DNA of 64,000 nucleotides from contig NZ_LR590470.1 in NCBI RefSeq assembly GCF_901472535.1, positions 2,294,001 to 2,358,000 on the forward strand, written 5' to 3'. Origin of the DNA: Sphingobacterium daejeonense (GTDB taxonomy: Bacteria; Bacteroidota; Bacteroidia; Sphingobacteriales; Sphingobacteriaceae). Positions 9,826 to 19,490 of this stretch are shown here, piece after piece; positions within the stretch are counted from its first letter, which is position 1; each line of letters begins with the position of its first letter. A program made the position numbers and the translations under genes. The notes under the pieces were generated by a model. It had not been told where the DNA came from and ran no database searches. It saw only the letters and a list, made by a program, of their open reading frames with translations.

Positions 9826-9898
9826 GATTCCGTAGCTCAGCTGGTAGAGCAATACACTTTTAATGTATGGGTCCTGGGTTCGAATCCCAGCGGGATCA
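9826..9898 (+). tRNA. tRNA-Lys (anticodon TTT)
   Basis: A full cloverleaf: acceptor GATTCCG pairs with CGGGATC (one G-U), D arm GCTC/GAGC, anticodon stem ATACA/TGTAT with loop CTTTTAA (anticodon TTT at 9859-9861), T arm CTGGG/CCCAG with TTCGAAT, discriminator A. CCA is not encoded. Confidence 0.97.
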
Positions 9899-9903
9899 CA
9901 AAA

Positions 9904-9938
9904 AAAAGCTCAATCGAAAGATTGAGCTTTTTTTTGTG
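9904..9938 (+). terminator. Terminator after tRNA-Lys
   Basis: AAGCTCAATC and GATTGAGCTT pair around GAAA, followed by a run of eight or more T; it starts within ten bases of the tRNA end. Confidence 0.92.
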
Positions 9939-9980
9939 CCCGCCGGGATTCGAATAATATTCCGAAGGGACCCATATTGG
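9935..9980 (-). other. Possible degenerate antisense fragment of a tRNA 3' half
   Basis: Just past the terminator, TGTGCCCGCCGGGATTCGAA followed, after a short unrelated insert, by GGGACCCATA resembles the reverse complement of the tRNA-Lys 3' half (T arm and variable region). No cloverleaf can be built, so it would be a remnant. Similarity was judged by eye. Confidence 0.35.
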
Positions 9981-10083
9981 GTTCGATTCGGAGAAGGTTC
10001 AGGACAAAGTATTCAGTGGCATGTGGGGACACCTGCCACGTCGGCAAGTAATCTTCGCTCATTCAAAACGGTCTGTACAGCTC

Positions 10084-10252
10084 ACTAAATAGTTTCCCTC
10101 TCTTACGAGAGGGAATGACACGCTCACTCGTTTATTGAGGCGGGAATTGGGCGGGGAAGTGGTCGCCGCAGCGACCACTTCCCCGCCCAATTCCCGCCAT
10201 ACCCCCAGGATTGCTTGTCATTCTCAAGCTTTAGCTTGGGAAACTATTTAGT
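10084..10252 (+). repeat. Fold-back (MITE-like) element, copy 1
   Basis: 169 bp bounded by perfect 15-bp terminal inverted repeats, ACTAAATAGTTTCCC and its complement. Inside are, in order, a side hairpin CCCTCTC-TTAC-GAGAGGG, an AATGACA/TGTCATT pair, a perfect 28-bp central stem with a CGCA loop at 10139-10198, and a side hairpin CCCAAGC/GCTTGGG-like at 10224-10240 (one arm mismatched here, CTCAAGC). The result is a three-way folded structure. It codes for nothing. A second copy in the same orientation is at 12295-12464. Flanking bases for about 60 bp on the left and 90 bp on the right are also shared between copies, so the repeat unit is larger than the fold-back core. Confidence 0.85.
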
Positions 10253-10309
10253 CTCATTACAGAATTTTAGTTTGTTTGGTAGTGTGGATAGTTATTTAAT
10301 TAACCAGCA

Positions 10310-10583
10310 ATTTATAGTGCCACCCCTACAGGGTTGAATGGCATCGTATAATCTATTCTATAATAGTTACACCCCTACAGGGTTTCATGGCGTGATAATC
10401 GTTTGTTGTAATAGGTTAACCCCATCGGGGTGCCACTATTATAGCAGGTGTTAAACAAACATGCCACACCTACGGCGTTTGTGTTTGACGCGATTTTCAT
10501 TTCTATAGATATGGCAATGCCGATGGCATTTAAGAGATATTTCATGCCTCCGGCATTTAACCCCGATGGGGGTTTTTGGTCTG
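10310..10583. repeat. Cluster of short REP-like palindromes, including inverted repeat B copy 1
   Basis: Successive short palindromes occur: CACCCCTACAGGGT twice, ACCCCATCGGGGT, CACCTACGGCG, TGCCGATGGCA, TGCCTCCGGCA and CCCCGATGGGGG. The section 10451-10580 is nearly the reverse complement of 12731-12857. An open frame across these repeats on the minus strand (10375-10593) is made of repeat sequence and is not called as a gene. Confidence 0.8.
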
Positions 10584-10674
10584 TATATTCCACATTTTCT
10601 TAACTCAATGAAATTGCCTGTAGAGAGGTAACTTTAAATTTCAGTCTACATTTCAATACATCCAACATTAATTA

Positions 10675-11052
10675 TTATTCCGACTTTATAATTTCAACCT
10701 CTTCTGGAACCATAAATAGAATCTGGCAACCTGTTTCGGATTTAACTGAATGCTTATAGTTTTTTAGGGTATAGAGATAATCCCCTTTGATTAACTTTAC
10801 TCCATTAAAAAAGACTTCACCTTCTAAAATAAATGCTTCTTCACCACCAGGATGATTATGTAATGGATAGGAAGCACCTTCTTCAAATTTTAAAATAAAA
10901 CTTTTTGGTCTTTGATTATCCTCATCATAGAGCAAGACCTTATAAGAAATTCCTCGAGTATCAACATTTTCCTCCAATAATGGCTTCCATTCAATCATGG
11001 ACGTACTAACCATATATTTACCAAAATTATTTTTAGATTCCATAAAATTCAA
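10675..11052 (-). CDS. Cupin-domain protein (ChrR-like)
   Basis: 125 residues forming a single conserved cupin barrel. PLHNHPGGEEAFILEG carries the usual His-His-Glu metal ligands and KNYKHSV the third His. The spacing is typical of ChrR/anti-ECF cupins and of small quercetinase-like proteins, without an attached zinc-binding domain. It probably binds a metal and a small ligand in the cytoplasm; substrate unknown. A second Met at 11043 is an equally good start. It sits with a DUF1062 gene between the repeat copies. Confidence 0.75.
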   Translation of the reverse strand: MNFMESKNNFGKYMVSTSMIEWKPLLEENVDTRGISYKVLLYDEDNQRPKSFILKFEEGASYPLHNHPGGEEAFILEGEVFFNGVKLIKGDYLYTLKNYKHSVKSETGCQILFMVPEEVEIIKSE

Positions 11053-11205
11053 TTTCTATATTAACGTCTGTTTAACTAAAATGGTTTTATCGTGTTTTTT
11101 AAGCCCACCGATGCAGGAATTGGATTTCCCACGTTTTGAGTTTTCATTCTCATCGCAGATGAGAAAACAATTTTTAACATAATACCCTATCCACATCGAT
11201 TTTAA

Positions 11206-11769
11206 CTAACAAACCATTTCTAACTTTATCCTTTTTTGAAGAAACTTTGAATCAACCAAAATAACTTCCTTATCAATCAATTGAACCACTTGATTTGATG
11301 AAATACCCAGTAATTCCTTAATTATAGTCGATATTTTAAGATTGAAATTATATGGATATACGATTTCAAAAATAACTTGTCGATGCTGAAAGTTGATGAG
11401 ATTAGCCAATGAATCACCATGATATTTTAAAGAATACTCCATACTTGCAAAATCAAACTCAAAAGAATTTTTATTAGCAAGTACTGGTGAGAACGCATAC
11501 ATCCAAGCAGTTTCAATGTCATCATTTAAAAACTTATCATATAGTTCCTTATTTATAACTTCTGGATTTTTTCGTGTTAGGATTGTAGCGTTATAGGTAC
11601 TGTCACAATTAGTACACTTATAAATCAACCAAATATCAATATTTTTCTTCTGTGCGTTTATTCGAAACCTTTCACTGCAATAAAACTTATAACTGTCACA
11701 CCGGCTACATTTCTTTTTTAATAACGGAGTGTTTTTCACTATCACCTCCAATTTAAATTCTTGAACCAT
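11206..11769 (-). CDS. DUF1062 family protein
   Basis: 187 residues. An N-terminal four-cysteine motif (CSRCDSYKFYC... and CTNC) is followed by KFRINAQKK-type sequence (here RFRINAQKKNIDIWLIYKC), characteristic of DUF1062. The C-terminal third, ISTIIKELLGISSNQVVQLI, looks like an S4-like RNA-binding segment. Function is unknown; a nucleic-acid-binding zinc protein is a reasonable guess. It is transcribed toward the cupin gene across a 153-bp gap. Confidence 0.8.
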   Translation of the reverse strand: MVQEFKLEVIVKNTPLLKKKCSRCDSYKFYCSERFRINAQKKNIDIWLIYKCTNCDSTYNATILTRKNPEVINKELYDKFLNDDIETAWMYAFSPVLANKNSFEFDFASMEYSLKYHGDSLANLINFQHRQVIFEIVYPYNFNLKISTIIKELLGISSNQVVQLIDKEVILVDSKFLQKRIKLEMVC

Positions 11770-12240
11770 TGTTCTTTAATACCGCTTAATATTCTTTTGT
11801 GAATTGTATTATTCATGCGGTAGCATTCTCACTAGATTAATAAGATCACTGAGTTTTATAGCAATGATTTAGGTTGCTCTTTCGCGTAACCCTGCATATT
11901 CATGAATAATTATTTATTAGGAAACCGGTCGGGGAGAAATTGCCCCAACAAAAGAATTCAGCCTGTGGTTTATGAGGCTGTTATTAAGCGACTATAAATT
12001 TAAGAATGGTTCTCAAAATATATTTTGTGTTTGTGCTAATTCAAATCTACTCATTCTAGAATAAAGCTGCAAAACTTGAATCACCAATTCGATTAGGGTT
12101 GTTTTATTAATAATGCCATCAGTTCGGTGGAACTTTTTACTTCATCTTTCGATTTATATTTTTTTTATGTGTTTCCAATGTAAAAACACTTAAGTCTGCA
12201 ATCAACCAAAACTAGCCACATTTAGTGATGGTTGGGCGAC
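11770..12240. other. Gene-free stretch, possible decayed coding remnant
   Basis: No intact gene is seen. On the minus strand about 40 codons ending at the TGA at 12013-12015 read DGIINKTTLIELVIQVLQLY and onward with coding-like composition, but there is no start and I cannot assign a family. The rest is AT-rich without recognisable structure. Confidence 0.4.
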
Positions 12241-12294
12241 ACCAACCATGGCGACAAGTAATCTTTGGATATTCAAAACAGCCGTGTATAGCTC

Positions 12295-12464
12295 ACTAAA
12301 TAGTTTCCCTCTCTTTCGAGAGGGAATGACACGCTCACTCGTTTATTGAGGGGGGAATTGTGAGCGGAAGTGGTCGCCGCAGCGACCACTTCCCCTCACA
12401 ATTCCCCCCCCATACCCCAGGATTGCTTGTCATTCCCAAGCTTTAGCTTGGGAAACTATTTAGT
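12295..12464 (+). repeat. Fold-back (MITE-like) element, copy 2
   Basis: 170 bp with the same perfect 15-bp terminal inverted repeats as copy 1 and the same order of hairpins: CCCTCTC-TTTC-GAGAGGG, AATGACA/TGTCATT, a 28-bp central stem with CGCA loop at 12350-12409 (one mismatch) and CCCAAGCTTTAGCTTGGG. The central stem differs from copy 1 at several positions on both arms so that pairing is kept, which points to selection on structure or to gene-conversion between arms. Confidence 0.85.
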
Positions 12465-12528
12465 CGCATTACAGGATTTTAGTTTGTTCGGTAGAGTGGA
12501 TAGTTATTCAATTAACCAGCAATTTATA

Positions 12529-12905
12529 GTGCCACCCCTACAGGGTTGAATGGCAAAGTATAATCAATTCTATAATAGTTAAACCCCTCTGGGGTTGGAT
12601 GACCGGAAAACATATCTGCAATAATATTTTCAACACTTTAGGGTGAAAATGTGCTATTGTCGAAAATAACATTAAGCGTCTACTAATCCTGTAAGGATGT
12701 AACTATAATAGAAATTAAAGCTATACCCCCCCAAAAAACCCCATCGGGGTTAAATGCCGTAGGCATGAAATCTCTCTTAAATGCCATCGGCATGTAATAT
12801 CTATAGCAATGAAAATCGCCTCAAGCACCAACGCCATCGGCGTGGCATGTTTGTTAAATTAATTTAACTTAATGACATTAACCCTACAGGGTTTAATGGC
12901 ATCGT
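12529..12905. repeat. REP-like palindrome cluster, including inverted repeat B copy 2
   Basis: Contains CACCCCTACAGGGT, ACCCCTCTGGGGT, AATCCTGTAAGGAT, CCCCATCGGGG, TGCCGTAGGCA, TGCCATCGGCA, CGCCATCGGCG and ACCCTACAGGGT. 12731-12857 is the inverted partner of 10451-10580. The loops (ATC, GTA, TACA) vary little while the stems change in pairs. Confidence 0.8.
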
Positions 12906-15536: not shown

Positions 15537-18057
15537 ATGTATAAACCAAAATGGAAGTTTGATTTTTACGTATTTAGAATTCTGTTGATTTTCTTATTTA
15601 TAGCTTTTTGGCGTTTGAATCTATATGGCAAGAGGCAATTGAAGCTACATCTGAAGAATTAGTAGATCAGAGTGAGCCATGGTGGGTTTGGGTTTTCTTG
15701 GGAAGATTACACCCTCTGATGGTCCATTTTCCAATTGGATTATTGGTTATAGCAGGGATCATGGAGTTGGCGAAACTCAGGACATTTGATTCTAAATTAC
15801 GGACAGGAACCAATTGGTTGGTATATATTGGTGCAGCTGGATCTGTATTGGCAGTTCTTTTGGGTTTATTATTGGCGAATTCTGGAAGTTATTCGGGAGA
15901 AACATTTGAATGGCATCAATGGGCAGGAATCACAACAGCTATCTTGGCTGTTGTTACCGCATTGTTGTTATATGCTATCAATAAGTATAACAAAAGAAGT
16001 TTAATCATTGGTTATCGTACTTTTCTAATGATCACTGTATTGGGTGTTTTTATGGCTGGGCATTATGGAGGCTCCTTAACTCATGGTCAAGATTACCTGC
16101 TGAGTGCAACACCGTGGGCGCCTAAGGATGAGAATCTAGAAGGAATAGAAGGGGGCATGTCATCTGCTGATTTTGACTTTGCATCCTATACAAATGAAAC
16201 GGACTCACTTTCCTTAGAACAACAAGTCAATTTAAATCTCGCGGTCAGAACGATTCTAGCACACCATTGCTTCCAATGCCATAGCAGTGATAAAATGGAA
16301 GGCGAATTACGATTAGATGATAAAGAACTTGTTTTTAAAGGGGGAGAATCCGGAAAGGTAATCATACCCGGGGATTCTAAAGGCAGCGAGTTGGTTCGTC
16401 GCATTACTTTACCAGCTGGTCATAAGGAAGCTATGCCAGGGAAAGGAAACCATTGGGAGAAAAAGACATCGCTTTGGTCAATTATGGATTGATAAAGGAG
16501 CCCTTGGCCAGATCAAGCTAAAGGAATTTCAGAGTTGCACTTTGGCACCACGAAACCCGATTTACCTGCAGCAACTAATGGTCTGGAGAACCCAATAGAT
16601 AGATTAGTCAATGCTTATTTTGTAAAAAATAAGATCGAATGGCAGGAAGTTGTCGATGATCGGACTTTTCTACGAAGAATCTATTTTGATTTAATTGGAT
16701 TACCACCTTCCGAACAGGATTACTTAAATTTGAAGCTGATGCCAGCGCAGATAAAGGGCTAAGATTGCTCAGAACTCTTGACAAAAGACCATGAATATGC
16801 AACGCATTGGACGACCTTTTGGAATGACTTATTGAGGAATGATTATACCGGAACAGGCTATATAACACAAGGAAAGATTCAATATTTCCCCTTGGTTATA
16901 TCAATCCCTACAAAATAATAAGCCCTATAATGAATTTGCGATGGAGTTGATTGATCCTTCAGAAGAATCTAAAGGATTTATCAAGGGTATCGCTTGGCGC
17001 GGAGCAGTTAATAGCAGCCAAACTACGGCGATGCAGGCCGCGCAGAATGTATCCCAAGCGCTGCTAGGCGTAAATTTGAAATGTGCCTCTTGTCATGATA
17101 GTTTTGTAAGTGATTGGAAATTGGATGATGCTTATGCTTTTGCCAATATTTTTTCAGAAGAAGCACTTGAAATCAATCGCTGCGATATTCCTACAGGTAA
17201 AATGGCGGACACTAGAATTCTGTGGCCCGAACTCGGCGAAATCAGTAAGAATGGTTCCGTAAAAGAAAAGTCAAAGGAATTGTCAACTCTGCTCACAAAA
17301 CCTGAAAATGGCCGTTTATACCGTACTCTGGTCAATCGGATTTGGGCACAGCTGATGGGTAGAGGGATAGTGGCCCCCGTTGATGAAATGGACAAAAAAC
17401 CATGGAGCCAAGATTTATTGGATTGGTTAGCCGTAAATTTTGTAGAACAACGGTACGATATCAGACAACTATTGTATCTGATTACTACCTCTAAAACCTA
17501 TCAATTACCATCTCATACAATTAAAGATCCAAGCGAAATAAATTCAGAATCATTTGTATTCAAAGGGACATTAAAGAGAAAATTGACAGCAGAACAATTT
17601 GCTGATGCCGTTAGTTCAGTAGTAGACCCGGTTTATACGGTAGAAGCGTTAAAATATAATCCATTTGAAAATTCACAGGCTTATGCTTCAGCGTCTCCTT
17701 TCGTAAGGGCAGCGTTGGTTCAGAACGATCCATTTCTAACAGCCTTAGGTAGACCGAGCCGTGAAAATATCACCACTTCCCGCGAAGGGCAAGTGACGTT
17801 GTTGCAAGCTATGGAATTAACAAATGGAACTAAGCTCAATGAAACATTGGTCAAAGGGTTCCAAAAAATGGGTAGCGAAATATGGAAACCCTGAGCAATT
17901 GATCCAGGCAATTTATTCTCAAAGCCTTGGTAGAAAGCCATCCCAAAAAGAATTTGAAATTGCTAAAAAATTGATGGGCAACAAGATGGAGGAAGAATCA
18001 GTTCAAGAACTATTGTGGGCAATTGTTCTATTACCGGAATTTCAGTTCATCGAATAA
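15537..18057 (+). CDS. DUF2231 - cytochrome c - DUF1549 - DUF1553 membrane protein, frameshifted
   Basis: Start chosen at ATG 15537, giving a hydrophobic N terminus that joins the main frame after restoring one T at about 15600. Order: four TM helices of the DUF2231 type (LHPLMVHFPIGLLV), a planctomycete-type cytochrome domain with CFQCH (about 16270), a DUF1549 part (DRTFLRRIYFDLIGLPP) and a DUF1553 part holding a second heme motif CASCH (about 17085) and LVNRIWAQLMGRG. Frame breaks occur near 15600, 16458, 16765, 16890 and 17880. The family is typical of Planctomycetes and some Bacteroidota and is thought to be a membrane-bound electron-transfer partner of DUF1501 proteins; its substrate is unknown. 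Confidence 0.8.
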
Positions 18058-18069
18058 ATATGAAGCAAG

Positions 18070-19490
18070 ATGAAAAGTAATTATAATCGTAGAGACTTCT
18101 TAAGAACAGCAGGAGTAGGGACTTTGGCAGCATTGGCAGCAGGTGCCCCTATGTCTAGTTTTTTATCATCCTGTTCTGGTAAGATCCAATCAAGTGCTGA
18201 TACTGTCATATTACTTTGGATGGCAGGAGGGATGGCACATACTGAAACTTTTGATCCCAAGAAATATACGCCATTTGAAAAAGGGTTAGATTCAAATAAA
18301 GTTTTGAGTACTTTCAAATCTATTCCAACAGTTTTGGATGGCATCAATTTTTCAGAGGGCTTAGAATCCATTGCTTCAGTGATGGATAAAGGTACTTTAA
18401 TCCGTTCTTATGTATCTGGTGATTTAGGGCATATACTTCACTCTAGGCATCAATATCATTGGCATACCTGCTATGAGCCACCACAGACTGTATTAGCTCC
18501 TCATATTGGATCATGGATTGCCCAGGAGCTTGGGCCTAAAAATCCTGTGATACCTGCTTTTATCAATATTGGTCAACGGATGACTGTCGGTGAAGCTGAA
18601 GAGCTTAAAGCATTTCATACAGCGGGATTTTTGGGCAGCGAGTTTGGTCCGTTTATGATTCCTGATCCTACATCCGGCCTCGATGCCGTAAAACCACCCG
18701 CAGGCATGTCCTTTAGCAGATTCGAAAGAAGAAATCAGTTATATGCTGAATTGCTGGATAAAATGCCATTGGCGACCTTGGAAGTGATTACCAAAAGGAA
18801 TCCTTCAAACGCTCCATGGAGCAAGCCTACAGATTGTTGAAATCTCCAGAAGCTAAAGCATTTGATATTAAACAAGAACCTAAAGAAAGTTACGATATAT
18901 ACAACACTGGTAAATTTGGATTAGGCTGTTTAATGGCCAAGAGACTAGTAGAACAAGGAGCAAGGTTTATTAGCGTGACATCCGAATACGAACCATTTAT
19001 GGGTTGGGATACGCATGAAAATGGGCATACCCGCGCCAAGGATATGAAAAAATTGATTGACGCTCCTATAGCCCAATTGATAAAAGATCTGGACAAAAGT
19101 GGTCACTTGGACAGAACGTTGGTGATTGTGGCCAGTGAATTTAGCCGTGATATGGTGATGGAAGGAAGACCAGGTGCAGAAGTATTGCATCAAGTAGATC
19201 AGCCTGATATTATTCATGATATCAAGAACTATGGAATGCATCGCCATTTTACAGATGGCAGTTCTATCCTGATGTTTGGGGGCGGAATTAAAAAAGGATT
19301 TGTCTATGGGAAAACCGCAGACGAGAGACCATGTAAGACCATAGAAAAGCCAATAAAAATAGAAAGGATTCATCAGTCTATTTACCATGCGCTAGGTATT
19401 GACCCACAAAAACATGCTGTAGTTGAAGGAAGACCATTTTATACCACACCGGATGGAGTGCACAAAGCAGAGATGGAATTTTTTCTATAA
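18070..19490 (+). CDS. DUF1501 protein with Tat signal, one frameshift
   Basis: NRRDFLRTAG at the N terminus followed by an Ala/Gly-rich stretch is a twin-arginine signal, so it is exported folded. ILLWMAGGMAHTETFDPK and the C-terminal TLVIVASEFSRD with HFTDGSSILMFGGGI are typical of DUF1501 (sulfatase-superfamily fold). The frame changes near 18830 (NAPW to MEQAYRLL). It begins 12 bp after the DUF1553 gene and the two are almost always neighbours, so they likely act together in the periplasm on an unidentified substrate. Confidence 0.85.

Follow-up and report, generated by a model that had tools for sequence, protein, structure and literature searches.

An intergenic repeat with covarying hairpin arms and a predicted cloverleaf fold in a small group of Sphingobacterium genomes

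The window analyzed here, a 64,000-nucleotide stretch of the Sphingobacterium daejeonense genome, holds two copies of a fold-back element whose central stems differ from each other at several bases, with the changes in one arm matched in the other. Paired change of this kind usually counts as proof that an RNA is functional. The locus raises the question of what keeps the arms alike, and of what kind of repeat the element is.

The two window copies and their family

The copies are 93% identical, and a direct check of the sequence bore out the coordinates given for them in the preliminary description. Its account of their structure also held, including terminal inverted repeats of 15 bp (ACTAAATAGTTTCCC / GGGAAACTATTTAGT) that are perfect in both, a central stem paired at 28 of 28 positions in copy 1 and at 27 of 28 in copy 2, a CGCA central loop in each, and the lack of any open reading frame of their own. 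The parts of the two copies and their shared flanks are as follows.

10025..10083, + strand: left flank of copy 1, common to copy 2 (12235-12294) and to most other copies of the subfamily
10084..10252, + strand: copy 1, complete cloverleaf element, 169 bp
10094..10115, + strand: copy 1 end hairpin of the TTNC-loop type (TTCCCTCTC TTAC GAGAGGGAA)
10139..10198, + strand: copy 1 central palindrome, arms 10139-10166 and 10171-10198, loop CGCA at 10167-10170
10221..10242, + strand: copy 1 other end hairpin, TTTA-loop type (TTCTCAAGC TTTA GCTTGGGAA)
10253..10398, + strand: right flank of copy 1, common to copy 2 (12465-12610), running into a CTATAATAGTTACACCCC..GGGG hairpin array
12295..12464, + strand: copy 2, complete cloverleaf element, 170 bp
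12305..12326, + strand: copy 2 end hairpin of the TTNC-loop type, loop TTTC
12350..12409, + strand: copy 2 central palindrome, arms 12350-12377 and 12382-12409, loop CGCA, sole mismatch C12365 against C12394
12433..12454, + strand: copy 2 other end hairpin, TTTA-loop type

Folded computationally as single-stranded DNA, copy 1 gives a cloverleaf of three hairpins closed by the paired ends, at -65.4 kcal/mol versus -20.4 in shuffled sequences (z = -13.9). A search of the genome, which is a single contig of 4.73 Mb, with the 169 bp of copy 1 returned copy 2 (E = 8.8e-67) together with nine others of nearly full length, making 11 of the window type. At least two unrelated central hairpins occupy the same frame: a second subfamily (II), found through short end matches, combines the same end hairpins with an unrelated central palindrome (GGGCGATTTTTGGG...GTTGCGG).

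Read from the outside inward, the element consists of a tail (AAATAGT), a 9-bp hairpin with a 4-nt loop, a GACA tag, a spacer of mostly 16-30 nt and the central palindrome, and then the same parts in reverse. Its half-unit is a hairpin of about 34 bp, AAATAGTTT-stem-GAATGACA; two unlike half-units face each other around the long palindrome, and the outer tails pair with each other, closing a four-armed cloverleaf. Delimited elements are 161-185 bp long. Tags and tails are conserved in sequence, whereas the stems are conserved only in pairing. The two end hairpins of one copy always have different stems, which would keep the two halves from pairing together. In nearly all copies one end loop is of the TTNC type and the other is TAAA, TTTA or TGAA; both loops are of the latter kind in L189 and L240, and L238 is without a recognizable second end.

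The pattern AAATAGTTT-N17-GAATGACA, allowing at most two mismatches, has 47 sites in the window genome versus 2 for a reversed-pattern control. Intact elements could be parsed in 25 cases, 19 of them in the window genome and 6 in Sphingobacterium endophyticum NYYP31, counts that rest on searches and may be low. Four broken copies (L171, L175, L176 and L187) are cut inside the palindrome. A divergent form with the same tails and a less regular fold exists in two further Sphingobacterium species, G067 and G083. By pattern search the family is absent from the remaining 90 of the 94 genomes of the genus, where the isolated matches were mostly one recurrent non-hairpin sequence. When 84,980 species were scanned for exact half-units, repeated matches of hairpin form came from S. 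endophyticum only, and ten further matches that were inspected (mostly in Bacteroidota) had no cloverleaf; the plasmid and phage collections searched had no match to the element.

In most window-type copies, homology reaches about 55 bp to the left and 75 bp to the right beyond the 15-bp ends, so the repeat does not always stop at these ends. Flank type goes with hairpin type in the window subfamily, and with homology reaching this far outward, dispersal may have involved a unit longer than the stretch between the inverted ends.

Paired change in the stems and its cause

Matched change on the two arms, first described from the window copies, is real and extends across the family. Among 39 distinct half-units, 96.6% of the cells in the 9-bp end stems are paired, and both sides have changed in 87 cells versus 30 in shuffles, a count that is not a probability since the sequences are related. 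The covariation score of the end stems is 0.606, compared with 0.150 (sd 0.020) after shuffling and 0.05-0.19 in slid registers, and G-U occurs in 3 of 351 cells. In the central arms, compared over 22 bp, Watson-Crick pairing within a copy is 97.5% in subfamily I (a figure inflated by the choice of arm boundaries by complementarity, and the same in a fixed 22-bp window whose center was also picked by complementarity) and 97.1% in subfamily II. Pairing arms across copies lowers these values to 76.9% and 70.6%, and none of 2000 shuffles matched the within-copy pairing. RNAalifold, run on the eleven window-type copies, found both sides changed in 20 of 61 pairs.

As causes of this pattern the preliminary description had named selection on folded DNA or RNA and gene conversion from arm to arm. 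Our comparison favors templating between the arms at the DNA level over RNA selection, on four observations of which none is decisive singly. First, paired positions change at a rate not far below that of unpaired ones: the arms differ by 2.2-2.4% within a copy and by 17% (I) and 21% (II) between copies, and the unpaired spacers differ by 26% (I) and 35% (II) between copies. Slow fixation of compensatory changes would be expected to lag much further behind the spacers. Second, length changes of +1 and -1 are matched in both arms, the distance from AATTG to the loop being 23 in L178 and 21 in L180 on either side, and 22 in the other window-type copies. Third, the loop of L186 is reversed with respect to the ends, and subfamily II has loops in both orientations; copying or flipping of a palindrome through its arms should have this effect. 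Fourth, G-U is no commoner than A-C among the central-arm mismatches (4 and 5, respectively, in the small total of 17 mismatches in 671 pairs). Selection on folded DNA may still have had some part in keeping the pairing; the spacers change somewhat faster than the arms, which leaves room for some selection for pairing. The exchange of whole hairpins between copies could account for part of the pattern.

The strongest competing explanation is that the element is transcribed from neighboring genes, that the folded transcript stabilizes mRNA ends or terminates transcription, and that selection on this RNA keeps the stems paired. The strong covariation would be expected on this account, and it agrees with the terminator-like hairpins facing outward at both ends of the element, with the intergenic position of the copies, of which few (4 of the 31 with both neighbors called) sit between divergent genes, and with one loop class that reads as GNRA on the opposite strand. 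Stems in RNA, however, usually pass through G-U, and here G-U is as rare as A-C. The same place is moreover filled by unrelated central hairpins, both orientations are present, and Rfam gave no family above its cut-off at the element. We therefore regard maintenance by RNA selection as unlikely, although a role of the element in transcripts is possible. Identity with a retron-like or other described RNA was rejected, there being no Rfam match above the gathering score.

That template switching can produce and maintain perfect stems has been published (PMC8794818). The hairpins of that work share with ours perfect stems and multi-base compensatory changes written in one event; they were described for RNA genes, whereas the hairpin here lies in a dispersed repeat.

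We consider it probable that the element is a non-autonomous, intergenic, REP/MITE-like repeat of a small Sphingobacterium group, with arms kept alike mainly by arm-templated copying and with past dispersal in trans. Two unlike short hairpins with TGTC-type tags, set head to head, flank a near-perfect palindrome of 20-30 bp, and with the outer tails paired, single-stranded or cruciform DNA is predicted to fold into a cloverleaf with four arms. The central arms would be kept identical mainly by template switching, during replication, across the extruded hairpin, a change in one arm being written into the other, and the broken copies probably arose by deletion inside the palindrome. Very strong covariation in a dispersed repeat, with no excess of wobble pairs and with matched arm lengths and loop inversions, is what mutual copying of DNA arms should produce. 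Should this be borne out, the family would be a natural test case for how much covariation mutation can create unaided, and a caution for RNA searches that rely on covariation.

Dispersal and relation to known repeat classes

Orthologous sites with and without the element were found at two places. One S. endophyticum element lies between convergent genes that are 383 bp apart; in the window genome 10 bp separate their orthologues. The tRNA-Lys locus that precedes window copy 1 has syntenic counterparts in S. endophyticum, G067 and G083, all of them without the element. The empty sites suggested as a check in the preliminary description were thus found in the sense that presence and absence fit gain or loss, but the extra DNA exceeds the element at both places. 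Because more than the element differs between the compared sites, they document presence and absence and not a single insertion. The target duplication proposed along with them did not appear: direct repeats of at least 5 bp bound the ends in 2 of 25 elements, with 1.1 expected, which is not above chance. A second empty-site comparison, at L184, was discarded since L184 is bordered by an insertion sequence and by a region present in several copies that is apparently an rRNA operon.

The many scattered copies, together with orthologous sites that lack the element, point to past dispersal by an enzyme acting in trans. Such an enzyme might be the DDE transposase of a classical insertion sequence, which would recognize the inverted ends of the element as those of a derived MITE. 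YPAL, ERIC, NEMIS and RUP are listed as MITEs (PMC3733652), and our element resembles them in its size (about 165 bp, within their 70-300 bp), inverted ends (perfect over 15 bp in the window copies), lack of coding sequence, intergenic position, stable fold and occurrence in several copies, and the sites without the element would fit as well. It differs in the lack of a target duplication above chance and in its ends, which are not sharply bounded; about 9-11 bp of them are kept family-wide and homology often continues past them. No parent insertion sequence, or autonomous relative with the same ends, was recognized around the half-sites of the window genome. On balance a MITE origin of this kind appears unlikely. 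The insertion sequence that abuts two copies was rejected as an autonomous partner, since its ends (GGGCAATGTCATTAAGTTAAG) are unrelated and it sits in neighboring C/G hairpins. This insertion sequence (L184 300-1780, and L299) has three copies in the genome that are 98-99% identical.

Mobilization by a REP-type enzyme, raised as a possibility in the preliminary description, would make the element a REPIN or BIME moved by a RAYT (TnpA-REP) tyrosine transposase. REPINs and BIMEs with RAYT (PMC3116915, PMC6006769) likewise have two inverted hairpins, conserved tags and a dispersed position between genes, and the window genome has one intact Y1 (RAYT-like) gene, encoding a 181-aa protein with NHMH and YIHNNP motifs that resembles Bacteroidetes subclass 2.6, a subclass reported to have atypical flanking structures (PMC6006769); a second Y1 match is weak and interrupted. 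The 1.5 kb on either side of the intact gene, however, contain no unit, the nearest being about 2.4 kb away. Among the carriers, no Y1 match was obtained in S. endophyticum or G083, and no relative of the window genome's RAYT was found in these two or in G067, whose Y1 protein is unrelated. Conversely, G064, G089, G020 and G043 carry RAYT orthologues and no units were found there. The element also lacks the GTAG tag and has an extra central palindrome, and the transposase gene is neither flanked by units nor present in most carriers. REP-type mobilization is therefore not supported and we think it improbable, although a RAYT may have been lost after dispersal. Examination of the RAYT/Y1 genes of the carriers and of the abutting insertion sequence identified no mobilizing enzyme. 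We think it equally improbable that the central hairpin is a replaceable cassette, with unrelated perfect palindromes made or swapped within the conserved ends by a dedicated process on folded four-arm DNA (by a recombinase or hairpin-processing enzyme, for example) and not by replication slips.

The CGTC-tagged REPs of Di Nocera et al. 2013, which form head-to-head dimers and are reported in Bacteroidetes among other phyla (PMC3733652), share several features with the element. Its TGTC is a listed variant of CGTC and stands beside a 9-bp stem with a 4-nt loop, the intact elements are head-to-head pairs, and there is no dedicated transposase. GACA, which is TGTC reversed, occurs in most of the 39 distinct units, although the pattern that collected them included GACA and allowed at most two mismatches. 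The pairs always join unlike units, none of the intact elements having two identical stems. REP stems are expected to have 8-9 bp, a loop of 4-5 nt and A-T as their first and second pairs; the element agrees in stem and loop length, but its stem begins with two T-A pairs and the expected first A opposes an A, so that the first position is not paired A-T. Further differences are the tail, which is ACTATTT and not CCA, the long variable palindrome between the heads, and the pairing of the outer tails with each other. Without the CCA tail, with the extra palindrome, and with neither a target duplication above chance nor a parent insertion sequence recognized around the half-sites of the window genome, the element is REP/MITE-like but a full member of neither the CGTC-tagged REPs nor the MITEs, and it adds a composite form to the REP-like repeats.

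Sequences neighboring the element

Other small hairpin repeats form a mosaic in the intergenic DNA around the copies. In the window, the right flanks of the two copies are part of a 196-nt block that is 90% identical, and mosaic arrays of short hairpin repeats (CTATAATAGTTACACCCC..GGGG, ATGCCGATGGCAT, ACAAACATGCCACACC..) adjoin both elements at 10310-10580 and 12520-12800; pieces like these flank many element copies elsewhere in the genome. Directly 3' of the tRNA-Lys gene, at 9879-9954, the end of the tRNA recurs as an inverted copy of its 3' part that lengthens the terminator stem (arms of 27 bp with 85% complementarity), and the syntenic locus of G067 and G083 has similar inverted tRNA-tail pieces in tandem.

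Between the two elements, at 10675-11769, lie a cupin gene and an open reading frame of 187 aa that are absent from the syntenic S. endophyticum locus; sequences like them are present in the Sphingobacterium genomes G064, G092 and G100. Farther along the window, several broken open reading frames at 15608-19490 correspond to two genes that S. endophyticum (L279) has as single frames, of 841 and 475 aa, which suggests frameshifts from decay or sequencing error.
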